Shown piece by piece: positions 11,479 through 23,485 of a DNA stretch of 64,000 nt (position 1 is its first letter; each line of letters opens with the position of its first letter). A program made the position numbers and the translations under genes. Where the stretch lies: assembly GCF_017641085.1 (NCBI RefSeq), contig NZ_JAEPPI010000002.1, positions 124,001-188,000 on the forward strand, given 5' to 3'. The DNA comes from Gracilimonas sp. GTDB taxonomy: Bacteria; Bacteroidota; Rhodothermia; Balneolales; Balneolaceae. A model generated the notes under the pieces. It made no database searches. It was not told the origin of the DNA and was given only the letters and a program-made list of their open reading frames with translations.

Positions 11479-12477
11479 TTGGGTGTAACAGTGTTGGGGT
11501 TCAATAAAAAGTTCGGTTTAAAACTGCTTAACCCTTACCTTTTGCCTCACCAAAAAAATCAGTCTTTGAAGCGACCGTATTTAATTGACCTCAGCCTGAT
11601 CCTTGTAGCCATTATATGGGCATTGAACTTCAGCATTGTAAAAGTTTCTCTGCGCGAGATGGATCCTTACAGCTTCAATGCACTGCGGTTTATCTTCGCC
11701 ACCGCCTTGTTATGGTATGTAGCCCGCAAAAGAGGACATTCTCTAAAAGTAAAGAAAGAGCATTTTTGGAAATTAGTGGGCATCGGGATAGTCGGCAACC
11801 TGTTTTACCAGCTGTTCTTCATCATCGGGGTGAATTACACCTATGCAGCAAATGCCGCCGTGATGCTGGGCACCATTCCTATTTGGGTAGCTTTGCTTTC
11901 TCAGTTTTTTACGGATGAAAAACTTACGCTACTGAAAGGTCTCGGCGTTTTATTTGCCTTTGCCGGAGTGACACTCATCATTATGGGCGGACAGGATACC
12001 CTTTCCTTTGAATCCGAAACATTCCTTGGAAATATCATCACTCTTGTTGCCGCCGTGTGCTGGGCTACCTACACCATCCTTTCCAGAAAATACCTGGCTA
12101 TTTACAGCCCTATACAGTATTCGGCATTTATGTCGGTTGTCGGGCTTATTGCCTTGCTGATCGTTGGACTGCCCTTTCTGATCAAACTGAACTGGAGTGA
12201 AATTTCATACATTGGCTATGGCGGGATTTTCTATAGCGGGGCCTTATCGATCGGCCTGGCTTACATTATATGGAATAACGGCGTAAAAATGATCGGCGCG
12301 GTTCGCACAGCCGCTTACCAAAACCTGGTGCCGGTATTAGGGCTGATATTCGGACTGGTTTTATTAGGTGAAGAACTCTCCGTTCTTCAATATATTGGGG
12401 CCGGATTAGTTATTACCGGAATAGTGTTAGCACGATTAACTGTAACTTCCTTTAAGAAATCTGTAAAAACAAAGTGA
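11479..12477 (+). CDS. EamA/DMT-family transporter
   Basis: Inner-membrane drug/metabolite transporter, up to 332 aa, with ten hydrophobic segments in two EamA repeats. The first runs from LILVAIIWALNFSIVKVSL, the second from LVAAVCWATYTILSRKYL and ends with LGEELSVLQYIGAGLVITG. The start is uncertain: the frame opens with TTG at 11479, a GTG follows at 11491, and no in-frame ATG precedes the first membrane helix. It is divergent from tetR and its last codons overlap the GTG start of the SLBB export gene by 4 bp, so the two are probably translationally coupled. Export of a sugar precursor or other metabolite is possible but not shown. Confidence 0.85.
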   Translation: MGVTVLGFNKKFGLKLLNPYLLPHQKNQSLKRPYLIDLSLILVAIIWALNFSIVKVSLREMDPYSFNALRFIFATALLWYVARKRGHSLKVKKEHFWKLVGIGIVGNLFYQLFFIIGVNYTYAANAAVMLGTIPIWVALLSQFFTDEKLTLLKGLGVLFAFAGVTLIIMGGQDTLSFESETFLGNIITLVAAVCWATYTILSRKYLAIYSPIQYSAFMSVVGLIALLIVGLPFLIKLNWSEISYIGYGGIFYSGALSIGLAYIIWNNGVKMIGAVRTAAYQNLVPVLGLIFGLVLLGEELSVLQYIGAGLVITGIVLARLTVTSFKKSVKTK

Positions 12478-14210
12478 GAACCAATTTGAAATCGATTACA
12501 AAACGACTGTTCAGCGCTCTTCTTTTTCTAAGTTTAATACTAGGCGCGATGCATCCTGCCATTGGGCAAAATAATCAAAGCAACAACCAAAGCGGGACCG
12601 GACTAAACCTGAATTTCGATATTTTTGACGGAAGTTATTATTCAGATCCGCTTGGCATTCAATTGGCTGCACGGCAGCTTCCTTATGATGGCACCATCGA
12701 CAAAAGCACTTATGAGCTGGGAGTAAATGATCTGCTTTCGATAAGAGTAGAAGCTTCTAAAAACTTTTTTATCCGGGGCGTAATGGTTAACCCCGCCGGT
12801 GATGTCATTATTCCATCTATCGGACCGGTAAATGTAGACGGGCTCACCATCACCGAAGCCGAACAAAAGATTAAAGAGGAATCAGAAGGTTATGTGAAAA
12901 ATGCCTCCGTGGTTATCACACTTGAAAGTCCCCGACCGATTTACATTCAGGTTACCGGTGGTGTACCATATCCGGGGAAGTATATGATTCCTTCCCAATC
13001 GCGGGTTGATCAAGCCATTTATTCATCCGTTACGGACGGAAGTCGCGACCTGAGAAATGCCTCCCTTTCCAATTCCAGTGATTTTTTAACAAAGGGTAAT
13101 TATGCCTACCGGAACATCAAAATCGAACGGGAAGACGGTTCTGTAGAGTATGCAGACTTGGTATCCTATTTCAGGATCGGGGATGCTGAATTCAACCCAA
13201 AAGTTAAAGACGGGGATATCATCACCCTGAAAAAACAGAATATTGAAACTCCGAAAGTCAGTATTTCCGGTGCTGTGAAAGCAGATTATGAGTTCCAGTT
13301 TATTAAAGGGGACACTCCGGAAAAGCTGTTACAAATAGGCGGCGGTTTTGAAGTAATTGCCGACACCAGCTACCTGATGGTATTCCGAAGAACGGATACC
13401 GGAGCTGAGAAAATTATCGTAGAACCTGAAAACTGGGACACTTTCAAACTACAGCCCAATGACCGGGTAGTAGCTCCATTCAGTGACGAAAAAAATACTT
13501 CCGCCTCGGCCTGGGTATATGGTGAAGTTGAAATTCCCGGTAACTTCCCGGTCTATTCCGGAGAAACTACCGCACTTGAACTGCTGGAACTCTCCGGTGG
13601 CTTGACGAACAATGCCCTCCCCCAAGCAGCCTACCTGATGAGAAGTGGCGGCTTTAGAAATGAAATTCCGAATAAGTTCAACGCAGACCTGATGCGCCGA
13701 ACTTCCGATCAGGTAATTCAAGGGTTGGAATACCTGGAAGCGGAAACCAAGCTCAGCCAAAACAAAGTGTATATCGACCTGAAAGACGAAAGTCAGCTTG
13801 CAGGCCTGAAGATTTTTGATGGAGACCGTTTGTACATCCCAAGAGACGAGAATACGCTTTTTGTATTTGGTCAGGTAAACAATCCTGGTTACTTCCCTTA
13901 CACGCCGGGAGCCAATGCCATGGATTATGTGAGCCGCGCCGGTGGATTTGCCCTGTCGGCCGACAAAGACCGTGTATTCGTGATCAAAGCAGGCAATGCC
14001 ACCTGGTACCGACCGGGCGAAACGGAAATCCAGTCCGGCGACCGCATATTTGTTGACCGCCAGCCGGTAGAAGAACTGAATGCGTTACGAAGCTATCAAA
14101 TTCAGAAAGAGAGCATCAAAAACACCCGCATACAGCTGATTATGACCGGTATCAGCACCATTACCGGAATTATAACTACGTATGTAGCTATTCAGAATAT
14201 CAGGAATTAA
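12474..14210 (+). CDS. Polysaccharide export outer-membrane protein (Wza-like, multiple SLBB domains)
   Basis: Outer-membrane secretin-like channel component for capsule or exopolysaccharide. The GTG at 12474 opens a signal peptide (LFSALLFLSLILGAMHPAIG). A Poly_export domain follows at about residues 75-150 (YELGVNDLLSIRVEASKNF, GDVIIPSIGPVNVDGLTI). At least three SLBB-type beta-grasp repeats come next (IYIQVTGGVPYPGKY, AWVYGEVEIPGNFPVYSGET, LFVFGQVNNPGYFPYTPG). A C-terminal hydrophobic helix (IQLIMTGISTITGIITTYVA) could correspond to the Wza membrane helix. At 578 aa it is longer than Wza because of the extra SLBB repeats. It overlaps the EamA stop by 4 bp and faces the rest of the locus, encoded on the opposite strand. 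Confidence 0.9.
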   Translation: MRTNLKSITKRLFSALLFLSLILGAMHPAIGQNNQSNNQSGTGLNLNFDIFDGSYYSDPLGIQLAARQLPYDGTIDKSTYELGVNDLLSIRVEASKNFFIRGVMVNPAGDVIIPSIGPVNVDGLTITEAEQKIKEESEGYVKNASVVITLESPRPIYIQVTGGVPYPGKYMIPSQSRVDQAIYSSVTDGSRDLRNASLSNSSDFLTKGNYAYRNIKIEREDGSVEYADLVSYFRIGDAEFNPKVKDGDIITLKKQNIETPKVSISGAVKADYEFQFIKGDTPEKLLQIGGGFEVIADTSYLMVFRRTDTGAEKIIVEPENWDTFKLQPNDRVVAPFSDEKNTSASAWVYGEVEIPGNFPVYSGETTALELLELSGGLTNNALPQAAYLMRSGGFRNEIPNKFNADLMRRTSDQVIQGLEYLEAETKLSQNKVYIDLKDESQLAGLKIFDGDRLYIPRDENTLFVFGQVNNPGYFPYTPGANAMDYVSRAGGFALSADKDRVFVIKAGNATWYRPGETEIQSGDRIFVDRQPVEELNALRSYQIQKESIKNTRIQLIMTGISTITGIITTYVAIQNIRN

Positions 14211-14245
14211 GACCGAGTTAGGTTGTTTTCCCTTTGAATAGATTT

Positions 14246-15181
14246 TTAATCAGGGGCTGGGTAGTCATTTTCCAACGAGTCAGCCATCGTTTTAAAATAT
14301 TGCTCCCCTGTAATCTTGTGTAGAGTATTAAGTTGTGAAATGTGCACTCCATGGTAGAACTCTTTTGTAGGCTTATTATTTAAATCATAAAAGCTAATCC
14401 CACCAGGATTACGGTAATCACTTATGTACCGCTCTATAGTTGTAATAGAGGCCTGAAGCAACTTTAATACTTCTTCATCCTGCGTCATTAGGTAATAATC
14501 ATAAAGCCCAAATGTTGCAAAGATAAATCCATTTAGTACATGTACAGGTTTTTCTATTATGTATTCCTCAATCCAAAAATAACCTTCAACATCAATAAGC
14601 GAAATCCATTGCTCTTCCTGGCTTTTAAGCAGCTTAAGAGATTCAAAAGTTTTAGAAGCCCACTCTGAATATTTAGGATCACCGGTTACATTATATAGGC
14701 GGGTAAAAAAAGTTAAAATCCGGCCCTGTGCCATCCCTGAATACCACGGGCTTTTTAGGAAATCTCCGCTCGAATAGGTGTAATCAAAGTTATAAGGGAA
14801 AAGGAACTTATCGTTTGCTTGATTAGCATTTTCGACCAGCCTATTTGCGATGCGCTTGGAAAGTTTGAGGTAATCCGGATCACCGGTTCGTACATATCCG
14901 TCTACAAAGCTAATTCCTAAAGCAGATATATATACCGGGTGGTAATAGGGCGTACCATCGTACACATACATCGGTACTGAATCCTGGTCAAAAGCATCCA
15001 TTGTCATGGAGCGAACATATTCTCTTATATATGGCATTTCATGATAGGGGAGCTCTTGAATTGAATAAGCTTTTAGGTTTACCTCCGACAAATCTTTTAC
15101 TTTTTCAGATTTCTCAGAAAGTAGGTTACACCCTGAAATAATCAAGATAATGGGTATTATATATTGCCATCTAAACATCAC
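14246..15181 (-). CDS. Lipoprotein with D-glucuronyl C5-epimerase C-terminal domain
   Basis: Predicted to convert glucuronic acid to iduronic acid within a polysaccharide chain. The 311-aa protein starts with a lipoprotein signal (YIIPIILIISGC). The rest resembles the C5-epim_C alpha/alpha-barrel: YHPVYISALGISFVDGYV, SPWYSGMAQGRILTFFTRLY near residue 140, ISLIDVEGYFWIEEY near 200 and HVLNGFIFATFGLYDYYLM near 220. The usual N-terminal beta-domain of animal GLCE is absent. Its start overlaps the flippase stop by 4 bp, so it belongs to the same transcript. The lipobox implies a periplasmic, membrane-anchored enzyme acting after polymerisation, as AlgG does for alginate. Activity on a heparosan-like polymer is inferred. 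Confidence 0.8.
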   Translation of the reverse strand: MMFRWQYIIPIILIISGCNLLSEKSEKVKDLSEVNLKAYSIQELPYHEMPYIREYVRSMTMDAFDQDSVPMYVYDGTPYYHPVYISALGISFVDGYVRTGDPDYLKLSKRIANRLVENANQANDKFLFPYNFDYTYSSGDFLKSPWYSGMAQGRILTFFTRLYNVTGDPKYSEWASKTFESLKLLKSQEEQWISLIDVEGYFWIEEYIIEKPVHVLNGFIFATFGLYDYYLMTQDEEVLKLLQASITTIERYISDYRNPGGISFYDLNNKPTKEFYHGVHISQLNTLHKITGEQYFKTMADSLENDYPAPD

Positions 15182-16449
15182 TCAACCTTATATTTTTTTG
15201 TTAAATTAATTATCCAAATTAAGTTTATTACCTGTATTAATATGCTGACTCCACTGAATAATCCAATAGCAAGGTAAATACCACCCATATTTGCTCCTGC
15301 AATTATAGCTACCACTCTTATAATGAAGAGAGCTATCTCAAAATAAAACGATTTATTATGCTCGTTATAAATCAAAGGAATATAGGTTACAGGAGAAATT
15401 AGGAAGACAACAAATAAAAAAGGCGCCAATAATTGAACCAACTCACCTGACACTAACCATTCTACCCCAAAAACAAACTGAAAAATTTCCGGCCCGAAAA
15501 AAGTAAGAATACCGAATGGAATCACTGATAACATAAAAAGTTGTTTAAGTGTTTTTTTGGTATAACCTCTTAAACTAATTTTATCGTTATACATTTCAGA
15601 TACTTTTTGACTGAATACCTGATAAAAAGCACTGGCTATTAATTGTACAGGTACAATACAGACCATATAGGCCAGACCGTAATAACCAACCGTTTTTTCA
15701 TTAAAAAAATAACTCAGAAGTATTGGTATTACACTTAATGAGAGGGCGTTTACAAATGCATGGGGAGCATTTACTTTCAAAAACTTCTCATACTTTTTCA
15801 TCAAATAAGAAGCCCTTTTTAATGAAAAAGAAGAGGTTAAATAATTATCTACTTTATTCAATTTTCTTAAAAGGTATCCTGAAGAAAATAGATCCCCGGA
15901 TAGCTTGCCAATAATTAACCCTCCACTTAAAAACCCCATTGCCCCAAGAATTACCTGGAAGCCCCCCACTAAAACTGACCTGATCGTTTTGCTAACTGAT
16001 ATAGGACTATACTCTTTTTCTCTGTTTAGCCCATTCTGTGAAGCTTTTATAACAGCAAATAAAAGAATGTTTATAGGTACTAAAAATAAATATGCCCCCA
16101 TAGAGGGACTATTGAATATCTGGAGAATCTCTTTCCAAAATACCAAAGTAATCAACATTACAACCATTGCAACGCCAATGGTTAATAGCATAGCAACTTT
16201 AAACAAATGCTGCGCATTATAGCGACTCTTGGTTATTAAAATCGCAAAGTCATACCTCCCGGTTGCAAAAGAACTAATTAGAGAAAGCATGGCCAAATAA
16301 ATAGTAAATACTCCAAAATCAGTAGCATCATACATCCTGCTTATTATCGGAGAAACTATCACAGGGACAAATAGCGCAAAACCATTTCCAACAACCAAAG
16401 TAAAAATATCCCTCAACTCACTGGGGATTTTTTTATAAAGCTTTTTCAT
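15178..16449 (-). CDS. Wzx-type polysaccharide flippase (MOP/RfbX family)
   Basis: Inner-membrane protein of 423 aa with about 12 hydrophobic helices, expected to flip lipid-linked oligosaccharide repeat units to the periplasm. The N-terminus is typical of the family: LVVGNGFALFVPVIVSPIISRMYDATDFGVF, split here over helix one and the conserved DFGVF turn. Long hydrophobic stretches continue to the end (ILIQVINLIWIINL). It precedes the C5-epimerase gene with a 4-bp overlap. Local sequence is clearly AT-rich relative to the housekeeping genes outside the locus, which is common in polysaccharide loci subject to transfer. Confidence 0.85.
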   Translation of the reverse strand: MKKLYKKIPSELRDIFTLVVGNGFALFVPVIVSPIISRMYDATDFGVFTIYLAMLSLISSFATGRYDFAILITKSRYNAQHLFKVAMLLTIGVAMVVMLITLVFWKEILQIFNSPSMGAYLFLVPINILLFAVIKASQNGLNREKEYSPISVSKTIRSVLVGGFQVILGAMGFLSGGLIIGKLSGDLFSSGYLLRKLNKVDNYLTSSFSLKRASYLMKKYEKFLKVNAPHAFVNALSLSVIPILLSYFFNEKTVGYYGLAYMVCIVPVQLIASAFYQVFSQKVSEMYNDKISLRGYTKKTLKQLFMLSVIPFGILTFFGPEIFQFVFGVEWLVSGELVQLLAPFLFVVFLISPVTYIPLIYNEHNKSFYFEIALFIIRVVAIIAGANMGGIYLAIGLFSGVSILIQVINLIWIINLTKKYKVE

Positions 16450-16524
16450 ATGTTGAAAAGAAATTTCATTTTTAATCGAATCGTATAAACTTTTGTCCTC
16501 ATTCTCACTTAGACCAAATAATTC

Positions 16525-17706
16525 TTGAAAATAGCTTTAATTAGTCACCTTTTCCCAACAGAACTTCACCCTTTTTCAGGAAAGTTCATAAAAGACCAAT
16601 TGACCATGCTCAATAGTGAGCCGGGAATTGAGGCGGATTTAATTGTACCAACCCCTTTTTCCATTCCATTTACCAAGCGAAAAAGGAAGAACCATTCTGA
16701 TTTACTTGTTAACTGTGAAGCTAATCGCCTTCGATATTTATCATTTCCACGTAAAAGATTCCCGACACTCATTTCAGCAAGCCTTTCTAAAGTCGTTGGG
16801 AATTACTTTAAGAATCAAACTTATGATGTCATTAATGTCCACTGGATTTATCCGGATGCACTGTGTATACCTGAACTGAAGCAGTTGGGCTTTAAAACAG
16901 TACTTACTGTACATGGAAGTGATTGGTATCAAAGTAAAAATAATAGAACGTTGAGCAAGCTGTTTGGAGAGGTTCTTCATCACGTAGATAGGGTTTTATA
17001 TTCTGGCCCAAAGCTTAAAGAAGACATGGAATCTCACTTTCCATTTCTGTCTCGAAAATCTGAAATCATTTACAATATGGTGGATGAACATCTATATGAT
17101 GTCCCGGCTGTAGAAGAAAAGGATTCTGCGAAAAAGGAGTTGAACTGGGACACAGAAAAAACCCATAGCTTAACAGTAGCAAATATTCGTCATGAAAAAG
17201 GGATTGACCTCTTACTCAAATCCATAAATGAAGAAATGGGATTAAAAAATACCCACTTCCATATTATTGGAGCGGCAGGGCCGGAAAGTTATATGACCGA
17301 AATCCATTCGCTTCTTAAAGCCAATTCATTTGATAATATCACCATTCATCAACCTGTTCTTCCTGGCCAGCTTATTAAGTATTATCATGCCGCAGATTTC
17401 TTTACCCAGCCAAGCCGGCGAGAGGGTTTTAGCGTGGCCATATTAGAGGCAATGGCTTGTGGACTTCCTGTGATCTGCACTGATGTTGGAGGCAACAGGT
17501 TTCTCATTGATGACCAAACCGGCCTATTAATCAATAATGGCACTTCCGGAAAACTCAGCGATGAACTCCGGAAAATGGCTGAGCAATATAAATCTTACGA
17601 TAGAAATGTTATCCATAGTAAAGTAACATCTAAATATGGACGTGAAGCATTCAAAAAAAGATTACTTGGCAACTTTACTGAAGTATTAGCAGATTATACT
17701 GTATAA
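16525..17706 (+). CDS. GT4-family glycosyltransferase
   Basis: Retaining glycosyltransferase of the GT-B fold, 393 aa, adding a sugar to the growing repeat unit on the cytoplasmic side. The TTG at 16525 gives the expected N-terminus (MKIALISHLFPTELHPFSG). The acceptor half carries VLTVHGSDWY near residue 130. The donor-binding half carries VANIRHEKGIDLLLKSI near 215 and the E-x7-E signature in PSRREGFSVAILEAMACGLP near 305. It is the only plus-strand gene in this part of the locus and runs tail-to-tail into the next GT4 gene, with a 21-bp overlap of the 3' ends. Sugar specificity cannot be read from sequence. Confidence 0.87.
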   Translation: MKIALISHLFPTELHPFSGKFIKDQLTMLNSEPGIEADLIVPTPFSIPFTKRKRKNHSDLLVNCEANRLRYLSFPRKRFPTLISASLSKVVGNYFKNQTYDVINVHWIYPDALCIPELKQLGFKTVLTVHGSDWYQSKNNRTLSKLFGEVLHHVDRVLYSGPKLKEDMESHFPFLSRKSEIIYNMVDEHLYDVPAVEEKDSAKKELNWDTEKTHSLTVANIRHEKGIDLLLKSINEEMGLKNTHFHIIGAAGPESYMTEIHSLLKANSFDNITIHQPVLPGQLIKYYHAADFFTQPSRREGFSVAILEAMACGLPVICTDVGGNRFLIDDQTGLLINNGTSGKLSDELRKMAEQYKSYDRNVIHSKVTSKYGREAFKKRLLGNFTEVLADYTV

Positions 17707-18804
17707 ATTTAACAACTTCTTTTCCTCAATCGACCAATTATACTTTTTAAGCACCATTTTCTTTCCATTTTCTCCCATCTTATTCGCCTCTTCAGGATGA
17801 CTGTCTAACCATAATATAGCCTTAGATATTTCTTCGGCTTTTTCCGGGTCAACTAAAAGACCACAATGGTTTTCCGTCACTATTTCTCGCCAAAGAGGAA
17901 AGTCCGAGCCTATAATCGGCAACCCCTGAGCCATATATTCGAATAGCTTGTTAGGCTGAGCGTTTATGTGATTTGCGACCGGTTTAAATAGAACCAGGCC
18001 CGCAAATGAGTTTTGCGCATATTTAGAAAGTTCTTTTCGGTTAATCAGCCCTTTAAAATCAGTGAACTTCCAGCCCTTTCTATTTTCTATTGATTCTCTC
18101 AGCTCATTGTCATCAAATGCTCCGGCCAGCAGAAAAGTAATCTCTCTTTCGGCATTAGTTCTTTCAATCGCCTCAATCATTTCAACAATACATCGCTGTT
18201 TTGAAATCCGGCCAACATAAAATACCTGAGGTGATTCTAACCGGGCTTCTCGTTGTGATGTCATTTCAAGCTCAGATAACTGTGGAAAGTTCTGAATCAA
18301 ATAAGTGGATTCCTTAAATCGGTCTCTTATTGATTTCGTAACTACGACTGTAGCATCTAACTTGGAGTTAGCAAGCTTTTCTAATTTATCTGCAATTCTG
18401 GAAAAAAGGTTACGGAGAGGCTTATAAATCCATTCCTTATCGAGTATACTGGCCGGTACATCTTCATGCACATCATAAATTACCCTGTAACCACAACTTT
18501 TCAAGAAAAGTCCGATCGGTATAAGTTCCGGATCATGGAAATGAAAAATTGTACCCTGAGGATACTGAATAACCTTTCTGAATAAAGCCGGTATTGTTTT
18601 CAGAAATCGATCCCATTTCTTTTCAGCAACAGGAAGCCCTAAAACCTTTATACCATCCAACACTTCATTTCCGGGATTCTGCACTAAAAGATCCACGTTA
18701 TACCCGGCATCTACCAAAGAACGGCAGATCTTATAAAATATCCGGGTGTCATACAGGGTATGAACCGAACTTAACTGAACGATTTTAGGAAACGAACTAT
18801 CCAT
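17686..18804 (-). CDS. GT4-family glycosyltransferase
   Basis: A second GT-B glycosyltransferase, 372 aa. The N-terminal half reads KIVQLSSVHTLYDTRIFYKI and IFHFHDPELIPIG. The donor half carries VFYVGRISKQRCIVEMIEAI near residue 185 and a conserved FEYMAQGLPIIGSDFPLW motif near 290, in place of the more usual E-x7-E segment. The start follows the wecB stop by only 4 bp, so it is the last gene of the minus-strand wzz-to-glycosyltransferase series. Specificity is unknown. Confidence 0.85.
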   Translation of the reverse strand: MDSSFPKIVQLSSVHTLYDTRIFYKICRSLVDAGYNVDLLVQNPGNEVLDGIKVLGLPVAEKKWDRFLKTIPALFRKVIQYPQGTIFHFHDPELIPIGLFLKSCGYRVIYDVHEDVPASILDKEWIYKPLRNLFSRIADKLEKLANSKLDATVVVTKSIRDRFKESTYLIQNFPQLSELEMTSQREARLESPQVFYVGRISKQRCIVEMIEAIERTNAEREITFLLAGAFDDNELRESIENRKGWKFTDFKGLINRKELSKYAQNSFAGLVLFKPVANHINAQPNKLFEYMAQGLPIIGSDFPLWREIVTENHCGLLVDPEKAEEISKAILWLDSHPEEANKMGENGKKMVLKKYNWSIEEKKLLNLYSIIC

Positions 18805-18808
18805 TTAT

Positions 18809-19873
18809 CTAAGATAGTATGTTTTCAATTTCTCTTGCCATCCTGCTCCCTACATTAATTCCATAAAGGTCAGGATGATACTCTTTGGGACTAAAACCGA
18901 TTATTTGACGGTGAAAATCACTGGTTTCTGCAATATTAATTAACAAATTCCAACCGGCATCAACTGTTTCTGTCCATTCGGTTTCAGATCTTAGCGTGAT
19001 ACAAGGTTTTTCAAGAATGTATGCTTCTTTTTGAATCCCCCCCGAATCAGTAATAATCTTATAACTGTTGCTCATCAGTTGCAAAAAGTCTAAATAACCC
19101 GCCGGCTCAATAATTTCTATGTTATCACCTACTGAAATAATAGAATCGCTGATAGACTTTTGCGTCCTTGGATGCATCGGAAACAGAACCTTTTTATCTA
19201 ATAGGTTCAGCTGTTCTAAAGTCAATGAGAGTATTTGGGGATCATCCACATTGTATGGCCGATGCAGGGTGGCAAGGTAGTAACCGCTGGAGTGTAAATT
19301 ATACTTTTCAATAATATTCGAAGTTTCCGCAGCTATTTTAACATTATTCAATACCGTATCTACCATAATATCCCCGGTAAGAACCGTCTTTTCGCCCAAA
19401 CCTTCTCTTTCAAGATGGCTAACTGCTTCTTGAGTGGGCGCAAACAAATAGTCTGACGCATGATCGGTCAGCACTCGGTTGATTTCTTCAGGCATAGCCT
19501 TATTGAAACTTCTCAATCCGGCTTCTATATGTATCGTTACTACTCCAAGTTTTGCCGCTACTATAGCACCGGCCAGGGTTGAATTAGTATCCCCAAAGGT
19601 AATAACCAGGTCGGGCTCCTCTTTATGAATAACCTCTTCAATAGCGCCCATCATTTTCCCTGTCTGTTCACCATGCAAGCCAGAGCCGATATTCAGATTA
19701 TACTTAGGCACTTGAATACCTAATTCTTCAAAAAATACTTCAGACATATTGTTGTCATAATGCTGACCTGTATGGACTATGACTTCATTATACTTTTTGT
19801 TCAGCTCTTTGGTTAAAGCCGAAAGCTTGATAAACTGCGGACGAGCTCCAACTATGGAAATGATTTTCTTCAA
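18809..19873 (-). CDS. wecB: UDP-N-acetylglucosamine 2-epimerase (non-hydrolysing)
   Basis: Interconverts UDP-GlcNAc and UDP-ManNAc in the cytoplasm, supplying ManNAc or ManNAcA for the repeat unit. The 354-aa protein starts MKKIISIVGARPQFIK and carries the family signature HTGQHYDNNMS, ITFGDTNSTLAGAIVAAKL, HIEAGLRSFNKAMPEEINR and DSGGIQKEAYILEKPCITLR. The length is normal. It sits between the GT2 gene (24 bp upstream) and a GT4 gene (4 bp downstream) on the same strand. Its presence suggests the polysaccharide contains ManNAc or a derivative, although no UDP-ManNAc dehydrogenase is encoded in the window. Confidence 0.93.
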   Translation of the reverse strand: MKKIISIVGARPQFIKLSALTKELNKKYNEVIVHTGQHYDNNMSEVFFEELGIQVPKYNLNIGSGLHGEQTGKMMGAIEEVIHKEEPDLVITFGDTNSTLAGAIVAAKLGVVTIHIEAGLRSFNKAMPEEINRVLTDHASDYLFAPTQEAVSHLEREGLGEKTVLTGDIMVDTVLNNVKIAAETSNIIEKYNLHSSGYYLATLHRPYNVDDPQILSLTLEQLNLLDKKVLFPMHPRTQKSISDSIISVGDNIEIIEPAGYLDFLQLMSNSYKIITDSGGIQKEAYILEKPCITLRSETEWTETVDAGWNLLINIAETSDFHRQIIGFSPKEYHPDLYGINVGSRMAREIENILS

Positions 19874-19897
19874 CGATTCCTGATTAGTGATTGTAGT

Positions 19898-20989
19898 TTA
19901 CCAGCCCTTGACTCGAAATAAGAATTTGCGGATCAATTGATATAGAAACCCGCTAAAATGACCTACCTGCATTACTAATATGCTGCCCATAGAGTGTAAC
20001 CATAAAGACAGCAGTCCCGGCGAGGGGGATTCTCCGGTCCAATTTTCCTTAATAAAATTGTCTTTGTGCTTAGTTACCACTCTCATTGACTCTCCCAACA
20101 GTACAACGATGAGAAACAAAAGGAAAATGAAAAAATATAGATCTTGTTCTAAAAAAAAGTCTAACAAACCATAAATCATCAAACCACAGATAAACATAAA
20201 GGGGATCAATCCACGGATAGGAGAGCTCTTAGGATGTAACAGCTTTGTAAGTAGTCGTCCCCTTCCATACCTAAAGTATTGTTTAAATAAACCCAAATAT
20301 GTACTTCTCGGATAATACCAGCTTTTTATTTCCGGACTTATATAGATACTCTCTTCTCCATACTTTTCAATAAACCTAAGATTAAGCTCCGAGTCCTGAT
20401 TGGTAATGTTTTTAGTGCTAAACCCACCAATTTGCCTGAGGTCTTTTGTCCAAAAACATCCAAGAAAAACAGTATCAGCATATCCTGTATAATTTTCATT
20501 CATATACTTTGCCCCACCATTCCCCAAAAAACTTTTCACTGCCAGCGTAGTACCGGCCTGTGCTCTATTGGAAGCTACATATCGCTGGGAGCCCCCCACA
20601 TTTTTTGACTTGGTAGTTAGAAATACCTTGATGTTTTTTTCAAGATAATCTTCCTGATATAAACAGTGACCATCAGCACGAACAAAAATATCTCCTTTTG
20701 CTTCCTCAATCATTCTATTAAGAGCAAAAGATTGATACTTTTCTGGATTCTGCATCAATTTTATTCTACTGTCGCCTTCCGACATTTTATTAACAATTTC
20801 CTGTGTTCGGTCGGAACTCCCTCCATCGGCGACTAATATTTCAATCAAATTAGGATATTCGGTTGATTGGAAACCTGATATGACTCTCTCGATATGATCT
20901 TCTTCATTCAGTACCGGTATTCCTACCGTTACCGATGGTAGCTCACCAGAGATTGTGTAATCTTCAGTATGATTCTTTTCTTCTTCGAT
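19898..20989 (-). CDS. GT2-family glycosyltransferase with non-canonical start
   Basis: Inverting GT-A glycosyltransferase with a membrane-associated C-terminus. A TTG at 20848 would begin at IEILVADGGSSDRTQEIV, but that cuts off the first beta-strand. Reading the same frame upstream gives SVTVGIPVLNEEDHIERV, a textbook GT2 N-terminus, and the frame stays open to a TAA at 21056-21058. No ATG, GTG or TTG occurs in that extension. I set the start at an ATC (20989), which has AAGGA about 10 bases upstream just after the ligase stop; this choice is tentative. DGGSSD is the DXD-like region, ADGHCLYQEDY and TNQDSELNLRF are conserved core motifs, and two or three membrane helices follow (LIPFMFICGLMIYGLL). 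Spacing to wecB is 24 bp. Confidence 0.75.
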   Translation of the reverse strand: MEEEKNHTEDYTISGELPSVTVGIPVLNEEDHIERVISGFQSTEYPNLIEILVADGGSSDRTQEIVNKMSEGDSRIKLMQNPEKYQSFALNRMIEEAKGDIFVRADGHCLYQEDYLEKNIKVFLTTKSKNVGGSQRYVASNRAQAGTTLAVKSFLGNGGAKYMNENYTGYADTVFLGCFWTKDLRQIGGFSTKNITNQDSELNLRFIEKYGEESIYISPEIKSWYYPRSTYLGLFKQYFRYGRGRLLTKLLHPKSSPIRGLIPFMFICGLMIYGLLDFFLEQDLYFFIFLLFLIVVLLGESMRVVTKHKDNFIKENWTGESPSPGLLSLWLHSMGSILVMQVGHFSGFLYQLIRKFLFRVKGW

Positions 20990-21006
20990 AAGGGCCTCTG
21001 ATCCTT

Positions 21007-22290
21007 CTAAGTTGTTTCTAAATTCGTTTGTGTGCTTGCCGAAGTTTCGATGAATTTATTTGATACAAATATTAATCCAATTACTATAAAAAGGATACTG
21101 TTATAATACATACCCCCCAAAAAGTTGTAAAAGACAAGATAAGCAATGAAAGTAGCAAAAAGTGAAACTGATATAATCCTTTTACTTGACCCTTTTGGCA
21201 TATCATTTATTGTTTGAGTCGATGTCTTCCATATCACATAAAGAATGCCAATAAATAGTATAAATCCAATGATCCCAAGTTCTGCAAAAACTGAATAAAA
21301 TTGATTATGTGGCTGATAAATACCTAATGTTGTTTCTGGCGGATGATAAGTTTTGAAAACGGTTGAAAATCCCTGAAAACCAACCCCCATTAAATAACTG
21401 TCCAAAATCATATAAATCGCTGTTACACCAAGTAAGATTCTGTATTTTGAAGAGTCTTCAGAAGAACCGGCAAAAATATTTATAAATCTTTCTAAAAAAC
21501 TGAAAGCCAACTGTCGCACTGTCTCGCTTACTGCTATTGCAATTAAAAACGCTACCATCATATACACTAAAATGCGGTAGTTCTTTGTGTAATAAATTAT
21601 CACAAACGTCCCGATAGCAATGGCTACCCAAGAACTTCTTGAATAGGTTAGTAATACAGAGCCTATCAATAAACCTATGAACCCGAATAGAACCAATCTT
21701 TTAAAAAATGATTTTTCTTTACTAAAAAAGCCCATCAAAATCATTATAGGCAGGAAGTAGTTGCTTGCAAAAATATTAGGGTCCAGTGCACCGCCAGAAG
21801 AACGCATTAATTTCTGCCCCTGACCGGCATAATTAAAGGCTGCTATTTCAGGGTTTATATAGACTTGTAATAGATTATAGGCTCCAACCAATAAAGCCGC
21901 TCCTATAATTATGAAGCATATTTTCTTAAGCTGTTCAAAGGAGTTGATGCTTCCATAAACTATGTATGTCATTATTATCAACGCAATAAACCTGAAAACG
22001 TAAAACAGTGCTTCTTCCCGATCAGGGGTATAAACTATAGATAAAAAAATCAGACCGACAAAAAGCGCATACAGAACCTCAAGACCATAAACATCTATAG
22101 TAACGTCTCCATGAATAAGCTTTTTTGCCAAAAAAATTACCAATGAAAAGATGAGAGCAATTTGAAAAAACGTAATGGGTAACACAGAACTACCGTCCTC
22201 TGCCACAAGAAAAACGCCGGTAAATAAAGCCCCTACAACAAGCGGCGCTACAAGTACCACCCCGTTAAATAACCGATCAATGGTCAGCAT
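21007..22290 (-). CDS. O-antigen ligase/polymerase-family protein (Wzy/WaaL)
   Basis: Polytopic inner-membrane protein of 427 aa with about 11-12 hydrophobic helices, either polymerising repeat units (Wzy) or ligating the chain to an acceptor (WaaL). The Wzy_C-type region contains LLTYSRSSWVAIAIGTFVII near residue 215. A large periplasmic loop follows with GVGFQGFSTVFKTYHPP and IYQPHNQFYSVFAELGIIG, which includes the conserved H-N-x-F/Y found in this family. It overlaps the Wzz stop by 14 bp and its stop lies just before the extended GT2 N-terminus. Sequence alone does not separate polymerase from ligase. Confidence 0.85.
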   Translation of the reverse strand: MLTIDRLFNGVVLVAPLVVGALFTGVFLVAEDGSSVLPITFFQIALIFSLVIFLAKKLIHGDVTIDVYGLEVLYALFVGLIFLSIVYTPDREEALFYVFRFIALIIMTYIVYGSINSFEQLKKICFIIIGAALLVGAYNLLQVYINPEIAAFNYAGQGQKLMRSSGGALDPNIFASNYFLPIMILMGFFSKEKSFFKRLVLFGFIGLLIGSVLLTYSRSSWVAIAIGTFVIIYYTKNYRILVYMMVAFLIAIAVSETVRQLAFSFLERFINIFAGSSEDSSKYRILLGVTAIYMILDSYLMGVGFQGFSTVFKTYHPPETTLGIYQPHNQFYSVFAELGIIGFILFIGILYVIWKTSTQTINDMPKGSSKRIISVSLFATFIAYLVFYNFLGGMYYNSILFIVIGLIFVSNKFIETSASTQTNLETT

Positions 22291-23485
22291 TTCTAAAACT
22301 TAAAGCCGAAGTAAATTTTTGGTACCGCTCATAATCTTCGGGATTCTCTTCTTTCCATTTATCAAAGTAAACTTTTATGAATGCTACTATACAGCCAAAT
22401 AGGAAAGCCGCAATCATGATATATGCTCGCTTGGGGCTGTGCTTATAGGTTGGCTTCACGGCATTATCAATCACCATCAGTCCGGATGTGGCTTCTTCAA
22501 AACTGAGCTTTTGCTGCTCGTACTGCGGATAAAGCACCTTATAAATCTCTTCCTGAACCATGACCTCACGATATCTCCTTAAGTACTCAACAAATAGGGC
22601 CGGCATTTTTTCCACGGGCTGGAAAATATCAAATTGCCCGTCGGTCGTTTCCAATCCTTCACCCGAGCCTTTAATGAGGTTATTATAGCGTCGTTCAAGG
22701 GCTCTTTTCTGAGTTCTTAAATCGGTAAGCTTTGAACTGTTTTCACCCAGAACATCCTGCAGGTAGTTGATTTGAATTTCCAACTTCACCAGCTCGGTTC
22801 TTACTTCTGCGATCGCACCAATCTGAGCTGCCGCCTGTTCTTCCACTTCCAGAATTCCATACCGGCTTTGAAAAGCAACCAGACTGTCTTCAGCTTCTTC
22901 CATGTCGGCCAGGTTTTGCTCCAGCCGGTTTTTGATCAGCAGATAACCGTCTTCAACATTCTTTTTGTTGAGCTTTTGAACCGTGGAATCAACCACTTCA
23001 TAGTACCTTTTAACCAGATTATAGACGCGCTCAGGATCATCCCCGAGGTGAGCCAATTTTAAAGCAATAATGGAGTTAAAACCAATTCCTCCCTCACGGA
23101 TGTCTTCAATTTCAATGCTGTTATCAAACATTTTTCGCTGGGCTTCGGGGATGTCATTTCCATAAACTTCCCCGAGGTTAAACTCATCAATCAGTTGATC
23201 CTGAATTTCCGTGCTTCTCAGCAAAACCAGAACTTGCTCGGCAGAAATACTGCTTCCACCCATCTGAATATCTGCCAAGCCGCTGAGTAAACCACCGCCT
23301 GAGAGGTTAATCGAATTCCCGTCTGTAACTACAAACGACACTTCTGACCGATAGGTCTTCGGCCAGGCAAAAGCTAAAATAGTGCCGATAACGGTCGCCG
23401 TCAGCACGATTATCGCTATTGTCTTCTTTCTTAAAGCCAGCGTTGTGGCTACATCTAAAATATCTACTTTTCTGTCTTCGCTCAT
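22277..23485 (-). CDS. Wzz/GumC-type polysaccharide chain-length regulator
   Basis: Polysaccharide co-polymerase that sets chain length, 402 aa. An N-terminal helix (TIAIIVLTATVIGTILAFAW, about residues 22-42) and a C-terminal helix (AYIMIAAFLFGCIVAFIKVYF near 355) flank a periplasmic domain. That domain contains long coiled coils (EEAEDSLVAFQSRYG, ELVKLEIQINYLQDVLG). The proline-rich segment before the last helix (KPTYKHSPKRAY) matches the Wzz/GNVR family. There is no C-terminal tyrosine-kinase domain. It starts 7 bp after the pyrB stop and overlaps the ligase gene by 14 bp, so it probably shares a transcript with the pyrimidine genes. Confidence 0.88.
   Translation of the reverse strand: MSEDRKVDILDVATTLALRKKTIAIIVLTATVIGTILAFAWPKTYRSEVSFVVTDGNSINLSGGGLLSGLADIQMGGSSISAEQVLVLLRSTEIQDQLIDEFNLGEVYGNDIPEAQRKMFDNSIEIEDIREGGIGFNSIIALKLAHLGDDPERVYNLVKRYYEVVDSTVQKLNKKNVEDGYLLIKNRLEQNLADMEEAEDSLVAFQSRYGILEVEEQAAAQIGAIAEVRTELVKLEIQINYLQDVLGENSSKLTDLRTQKRALERRYNNLIKGSGEGLETTDGQFDIFQPVEKMPALFVEYLRRYREVMVQEEIYKVLYPQYEQQKLSFEEATSGLMVIDNAVKPTYKHSPKRAYIMIAAFLFGCIVAFIKVYFDKWKEENPEDYERYQKFTSALSFRNADH

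Follow-up and report, generated by a model that had tools for sequence, protein, structure and literature searches.

A 64,000-nucleotide stretch of the Gracilimonas sp. genome (assembly GCF_017641085.1, contig NZ_JAEPPI010000002.1, positions 124,001 to 188,000; hereafter the window) carries, within an exopolysaccharide locus, a gene for a predicted lipoprotein of the same family as the animal glucuronyl C5-epimerase GLCE. Our preferred reading, to which we assign a probability of roughly two in three, is that this protein is a membrane-anchored, polymer-level uronosyl C5-epimerase that, outside the cytoplasm, modifies a uronic acid of the exopolysaccharide, most likely converting glucuronic acid (GlcA) to iduronic acid (IdoA). 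This conversion is preferred because it is the one carried out by characterised enzymes with the same active site. The enzyme class as such is already known from animals and from Bermanella; the exported minimal form is new.

A predicted exported member of the GLCE family

The open reading frame at 14246-15181 on the reverse strand was confirmed as a real reading frame. An earlier note on this DNA had placed its start at the GTG at 15181, but the likely start is the ATG one codon downstream, at 15178, which overlaps the stop codon of the upstream wzx gene (TGATG, with the last base of the stop shared). The gene accordingly spans 14246..15178 and the protein has 310 residues, as compared with 311 when read from the GTG. 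A profile search bore out the C5-epim_C core proposed in the earlier note, with PF06662 matching at E 2.5e-42 and 145 bits (cut-off 23.3) over residues 124-302 of the 311-residue reading, and phmmer against solved structures returned zebrafish and human GLCE as the best matches (E 7e-11 to 2e-9). This is the only PF06662 gene in the genome. NCBIfam holds no model for the family, and its sole match, to LanM, was weak and sub-threshold.

With respect to catalysis, the key residues of human GLCE are E499, Y500, N510, Y560 and Y578 (PMC13308652), and all five have aligned counterparts in the window protein. These are the catalytic Glu205 and Tyr206 (14561..14566), Asn216 (14531..14533), and the catalytic Tyr264 (14387..14389) and Tyr275 (14354..14356), all encoded on the reverse strand, so the alignment that had been suggested as a check on the catalytic Tyr and Glu residues finds them conserved. 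All five are invariant across the 23 exported sequences compared, a set for whose collection the YWIEEY part was used and N216, Y264 and Y275 were not.

The predicted fold points in the same direction. An AlphaFold model built from 24 sequences reached a mean predicted local distance difference test score (pLDDT) of 92.9, and Foldseek ranked GLCE entries first among its matches, which also included GH76 proteins and cellobiose 2-epimerases. Alignment of the model with human GLCE (6hzz) by VIA-align gave a Z of 29.0 and 2.7 Å over 261 residues, at about 23% identity, while the next fold family, the cellobiose 2-epimerases, reached a Z of 17.9. In human GLCE, a beta-sandwich (residues 234-352) is inserted into an alpha-barrel (167-233 and 353-617), and the cleft between the two holds the substrate (PMC12350261). 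The window protein corresponds to the alpha-barrel only and lacks both the N-terminal beta-hairpin of animal GLCE and the inserted sandwich; there is no room for a counterpart of the latter, because the protein has 310 residues in total and the 261 aligned ones span human positions 167-612. It presumably represents a minimal form of GLCE with a more open cleft.

The N-terminus of the protein, MFRWQYIIPIILIISGC (residues 1-17; 15128..15178, reverse strand), consists of a hydrophobic stretch followed by the lipobox that the earlier note had proposed, here read as I-S-G-C (IISGC), with the lipobox cysteine placed by pattern-based prediction at Cys17 (codon 15130-15128). This cysteine is present in 21 of 24 aligned exported-type homologues, and in the haloarchaeal ones it follows a twin-arginine motif, as in Tat-type leaders. 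Judging from sequence, the epimerase is therefore a putative membrane-anchored lipoprotein, with lipid anchoring and compartment both predicted.

The epimerase gene in a Wzx/Wzy-type locus

The gene is embedded in a Wzx/Wzy-type locus at 12474-23485, in which Wzx, Wzy, Wzz, OPX and glycosyltransferases were all found. The order is OPX (forward strand), epimerase, Wzx, GT4 (forward strand), GT4, WecB, GT2, Wzy and Wzz, followed by pyrB. The Wzx flippase (15178..16449, reverse strand; PF13440, E 5e-21, and PF01943) is paired with the epimerase in a unit of two genes that diverges from the GT4 gene at 16525, and the shared operon with wzx that had been claimed for the epimerase holds, as wzx lies directly upstream on the same strand with the start/stop overlap described above. 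No initiating phosphoglycosyltransferase was recognised within the locus; inspection by eye turned up a candidate on a different contig.

In the mechanism that we envisage, Wzx would flip lipid-linked repeat units outward and Wzy would then polymerise them. The anchored barrel, located in the periplasm or on the outer face of a membrane, would abstract the C5 proton of an in-chain uronic acid by way of its Tyr/Glu residues, and a proton would be returned from the other face, as for GLCE, with D-glucuronate to L-iduronate as the most likely outcome. The epimerised chain would then exit through the OPX exporter. As for the precursor, the genome encodes three clear nucleoside diphosphate (NDP)-sugar dehydrogenases, all on contig C1. 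One of these (C1:255942-257114) closely resembles the E. coli-type UDP-glucose 6-dehydrogenase, at 643 bits and under the strict cut-off of 757, so that UDP-GlcA is probably available. A strong match to UDP-glucose dehydrogenase is found in all four Balneolaceae genomes that have the lipoprotein epimerase.

Comparison of the same chromosomal site across the genus offers a further view of the epimerase slot. One genome (G001) carries the same locus, with proteins 97-100% identical, and in four further genomes of the genus this site, between pyrB and EamA/OPX, is also occupied by a polysaccharide locus. In three of these, the slot beside Wzx is filled by a protein of about 575 residues with a glutamine amidotransferase domain, and no epimerase is present (L089, 3888-5606; L090, 14253-16010; L091, 9063-10784). 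These proteins are asparagine-synthase-like amidotransferases, the asparagine-synthase domain itself being found in two of the three. In some O-antigen loci, such amidotransferases modify the carboxyl groups of uronic acids; our literature search for enzymes of this type with uronates as targets in polysaccharide loci returned no paper. If they do so here, both slot occupants, epimerase and amidotransferase, would act on a uronic acid of related polymers, and an amidotransferase-like gene in the slot is consistent with a polymer-tailoring role.

Distribution and gene context of relatives

A scan of genome contigs with the single window protein as query found no relative, while a three-sequence profile (A2) recovered 27 loci. 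These come from Balneola, Zixibacteria, KSB1, WOR-3 and Neomarinimicrobiota, from a Flavobacteriaceae metagenome-assembled genome (MAG), a Chloroflexaceae MAG and Thermoactinomyces, and from haloarchaea including Halobacterium salinarum. A midpoint-rooted maximum-likelihood tree built on the catalytic core has a 100/99 branch that separates 23 exported-type proteins (three of them with no visible lipobox) from animal GLCE and 10 signal-less proteins of Bacteroidota; subgroup-specific motifs (Y[YF]WIEEY and YS[YI]QELPY) served to gather the exported set, so that its unity is partly built in. We excluded as lipobox evidence two interrupted fragments (L085, L086), a sequence with an apparent frameshift near its start (L075), one read in the wrong frame (L073) and one beside masked bases (L081). 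We consider it an even bet that exported, alpha-barrel-only GLCE-type epimerases constitute a distinct cross-domain family that, after export, generates iduronate or other L-uronates within surface polymers. If true, prokaryotes would form iduronate outside the cytoplasm much more commonly than one would expect from the single bacterial enzyme characterised so far.

Several exported homologues have polysaccharide genes as neighbours, namely Wzy (L065), Wzx and Wzy (L066), an initiating sugar transferase (L071), Wzx (L072, L082), WecB and Wzx around the epimerase gene in a Chloroflexi MAG (L070), and an adjacent GT4 in Halobacterium (L079). In KSB1 (L084), the order is Wzx, epimerase, Wzz, with an NDP-sugar dehydrogenase in addition. 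The link of exported homologues to export loci is thus recurrent, not universal.

Regarding abundance, of the 394 genomes sampled from the phylum, 13 encode a strong (over 100-bit) PF06662 protein; the many weaker matches cover short segments of other proteins, which are probably other barrels. The description of such enzymes as rare in bacteria is therefore fair insofar as they are uncommon, and overstated insofar as it implies that they are exceptional. Within the class, the lipoprotein form was found only in the window genome, in G001 and in two Balneola genomes.

A number of individual relatives have features of their own. In Halohasta (L082, 6047-12185), the homologue is flanked by three sulfatase-family proteins, with Wzx nearby, and these neighbours may point to a sulfated polymer. 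Tandem pairs of exported homologues occur in a Zixibacteria MAG (L062, 5492-7361) and a related bacterium (L063, 7079-8933), in each case adjoining a protein that by eye resembles a radical SAM enzyme. The Chloroflexaceae homologue (L070, 1787-3370) has 527 residues and a C-terminal extension resembling, by eye, a laminin-G-type domain.

Weighing of alternative functions

Five observations weigh against the preferred reading. UDP-glucose dehydrogenase is encoded outside the locus, none of the three NDP-sugar dehydrogenases lying in the window, and no uronic-acid transferase could be named among the three glycosyltransferases of the locus. For roughly two in three exported homologues, no recognised polysaccharide gene lies nearby (several of their contigs are short), and the closest relatives outside the genus, from Balneola (56% identical), lie outside any polysaccharide locus. 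Finally, GLCE has a beta-sandwich as one wall of its substrate cleft; this is absent from the window protein, and recognition must therefore differ.

Among other readings, the one that fares best is an enzyme of the same kind with a different substrate: N-acetylmannosaminuronate (ManNAcA), with L-GulNAcA as the product, or some other amino-uronate of the polymer. The locus encodes WecB, which makes UDP-ManNAc, and WecB is missing from two of the epimerase-less sister loci (L089, L090); it also lies near the exported Chloroflexi homologue and near two signal-less ones (L041, L044), and a second NDP-sugar dehydrogenase of the genome is closer to WecC and TviB. WecB may, however, just provide ManNAc as an adjacent sugar, it is absent from the neighbourhood of most exported homologues, and the characterised enzymes with the same active site, GLCE and the Bermanella enzyme (PMC4432689), use glucuronate. 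We regard an amino-uronate substrate as unlikely, if worth keeping in view.

The setting of the Balneola pair, in which the gene lies between DAO-family and FAD/4Fe-4S oxidoreductases and, in one of the two genomes, a SusC/SusD pair is two genes away, would suit an enzyme that works at the surface on uronate polymers of foreign origin, for example in scavenging, and that sits in the Gracilimonas exopolysaccharide locus by accident. The lack of polysaccharide neighbours around several exported homologues would agree with this. We nonetheless give this reading a small chance, since the epimerase start overlaps the wzx stop inside a complete export locus, sister species fill the slot with another candidate tailoring gene, and Wzx, Wzy or Wzz neighbours recur across other phyla.

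The chance is likewise slim that the protein is not an epimerase and that its barrel hydrolyses, cleaves or merely binds the polymer. At 145 bits, the PF06662 match stands against 30 and 23 bits for the hydrolase matches, the next fold family is separated by the Z gap of 29.0 to 17.9, and the five GLCE catalytic residues are found in every exported sequence. This outweighs, in our assessment, the fact that the barrel is common to several glycoside hydrolases, with weak GH127 and GH47 Pfam matches that pass their cut-offs and with GH76 and cellobiose 2-epimerases among the Foldseek matches, as well as the possibility that the absent beta-sandwich could alter the reaction. The GH127, GH47 and GH76 matches were attributed to the shared barrel. 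Last, an enzyme located in the cytoplasm, with lipid-linked repeat units as its substrate and a misread N-terminus, is highly improbable, for although signal-less homologues occur in Bacteroidota glycan clusters and the haloarchaeal Agl32 acts before translocation (PMC13308652), a lipobox follows the hydrophobic stretch here and in 21 of 24 branch members, across bacterial and Tat-type routes.

Comparison with known C5-epimerases

Animal GLCE (PDB 6HZZ, 4PXQ) shares PF06662, the five catalytic residues and the alpha-barrel with the window protein, and differs in its length (617 residues compared with about 310) and in that the window protein is a predicted bacterial lipoprotein. Alginate C5-epimerases (AlgG, AlgE) have a beta-helix fold, and their substrate is mannuronate (ManA). 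What they have in common with the activity proposed here is post-polymerisation C5-epimerisation of a bacterial exopolysaccharide (PMC4432689).

Closer at hand is RED65_08024 of Bermanella marisrubri, a bacterial relative of GLCE for which conversion of GlcA to IdoA in vitro has been reported (PMC4432689; PMC12834895). Its natural polymer was not known according to a 2015 review (PMC4432689), and a 2026 paper counts only one bacterial D-glucuronyl C5-epimerase identified so far (PMC13308652). Prokaryotic candidates were surveyed in silico by Raedts (2011), as cited in PMC4432689. Our literature search returned no lipoprotein or alpha-barrel-only GLCE-type enzyme tied to Wzx/Wzy loci, the Raedts list being uncompared. 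The signal-less Bacteroidota proteins (L034-L041, L044, L045) belong to the same barrel family and lie mostly in glycan clusters, and 7 of the 10 have the full set of GLCE residues; they differ from the window protein in having no signal peptide, in being only 23-28% identical and in lying across the 100/99 branch.

Agl32 of Halobacterium salinarum is likewise a prokaryotic C5-epimerase that converts GlcA to IdoA on a glycan. It is reported to lack the catalytic residues of GLCE, and its reported substrate is a lipid-linked tetrasaccharide that has yet to be translocated (PMC13308652). The exported homologue of Halobacterium salinarum DSM 3754 (L079, 4559-5515) has a twin-arginine lipoprotein leader and, unlike Agl32 as published, the full GLCE catalytic set. 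A second PF06662 protein of Halobacterium salinarum is encoded at G547:C1:965806-966342, and neither of the two is on the aglB contig.

A compact, exported, single-domain form in its own polymer locus would tie a bacterial iduronate polymer to its enzyme and would show how little of GLCE suffices for catalysis. It would also offer a small enzyme for the synthesis of heparin-like polysaccharides.

Other genes of the locus and genome

The remaining genes of the locus were assigned by domain match. They encode a Wza-type OPX polysaccharide export protein with SLBB domains (12474..14210, forward), GT4 glycosyltransferases at 16525..17706 (forward) and 17686..18804 (reverse), a GT2 glycosyltransferase (19898..20848, reverse), a Wzy-type polymerase with a Wzy_C domain (21007..22290, reverse) and a Wzz-type chain-length determinant (22277..23485, reverse). 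WecB, the non-hydrolysing UDP-GlcNAc 2-epimerase (18809..19873, reverse), matched TIGR00236 at 294 bits (cut-off 210). Elsewhere in the genome, a second glycan locus (L087, G000:C1:230000-246000) encodes, by eye, NeuB-, NeuC- and NeuA-like proteins of nonulosonic acid synthesis as well as flippase-like and amidotransferase-like proteins. The GT2 frame extends upstream of 20848 (19898-20930, reverse), running about 30 codons beyond the first ATG, GTG or TTG with a conserved N-terminus, PSVTVGIPVLNEEDHIERV; G001 shows the same extension, and the gene may use an unusual start codon.
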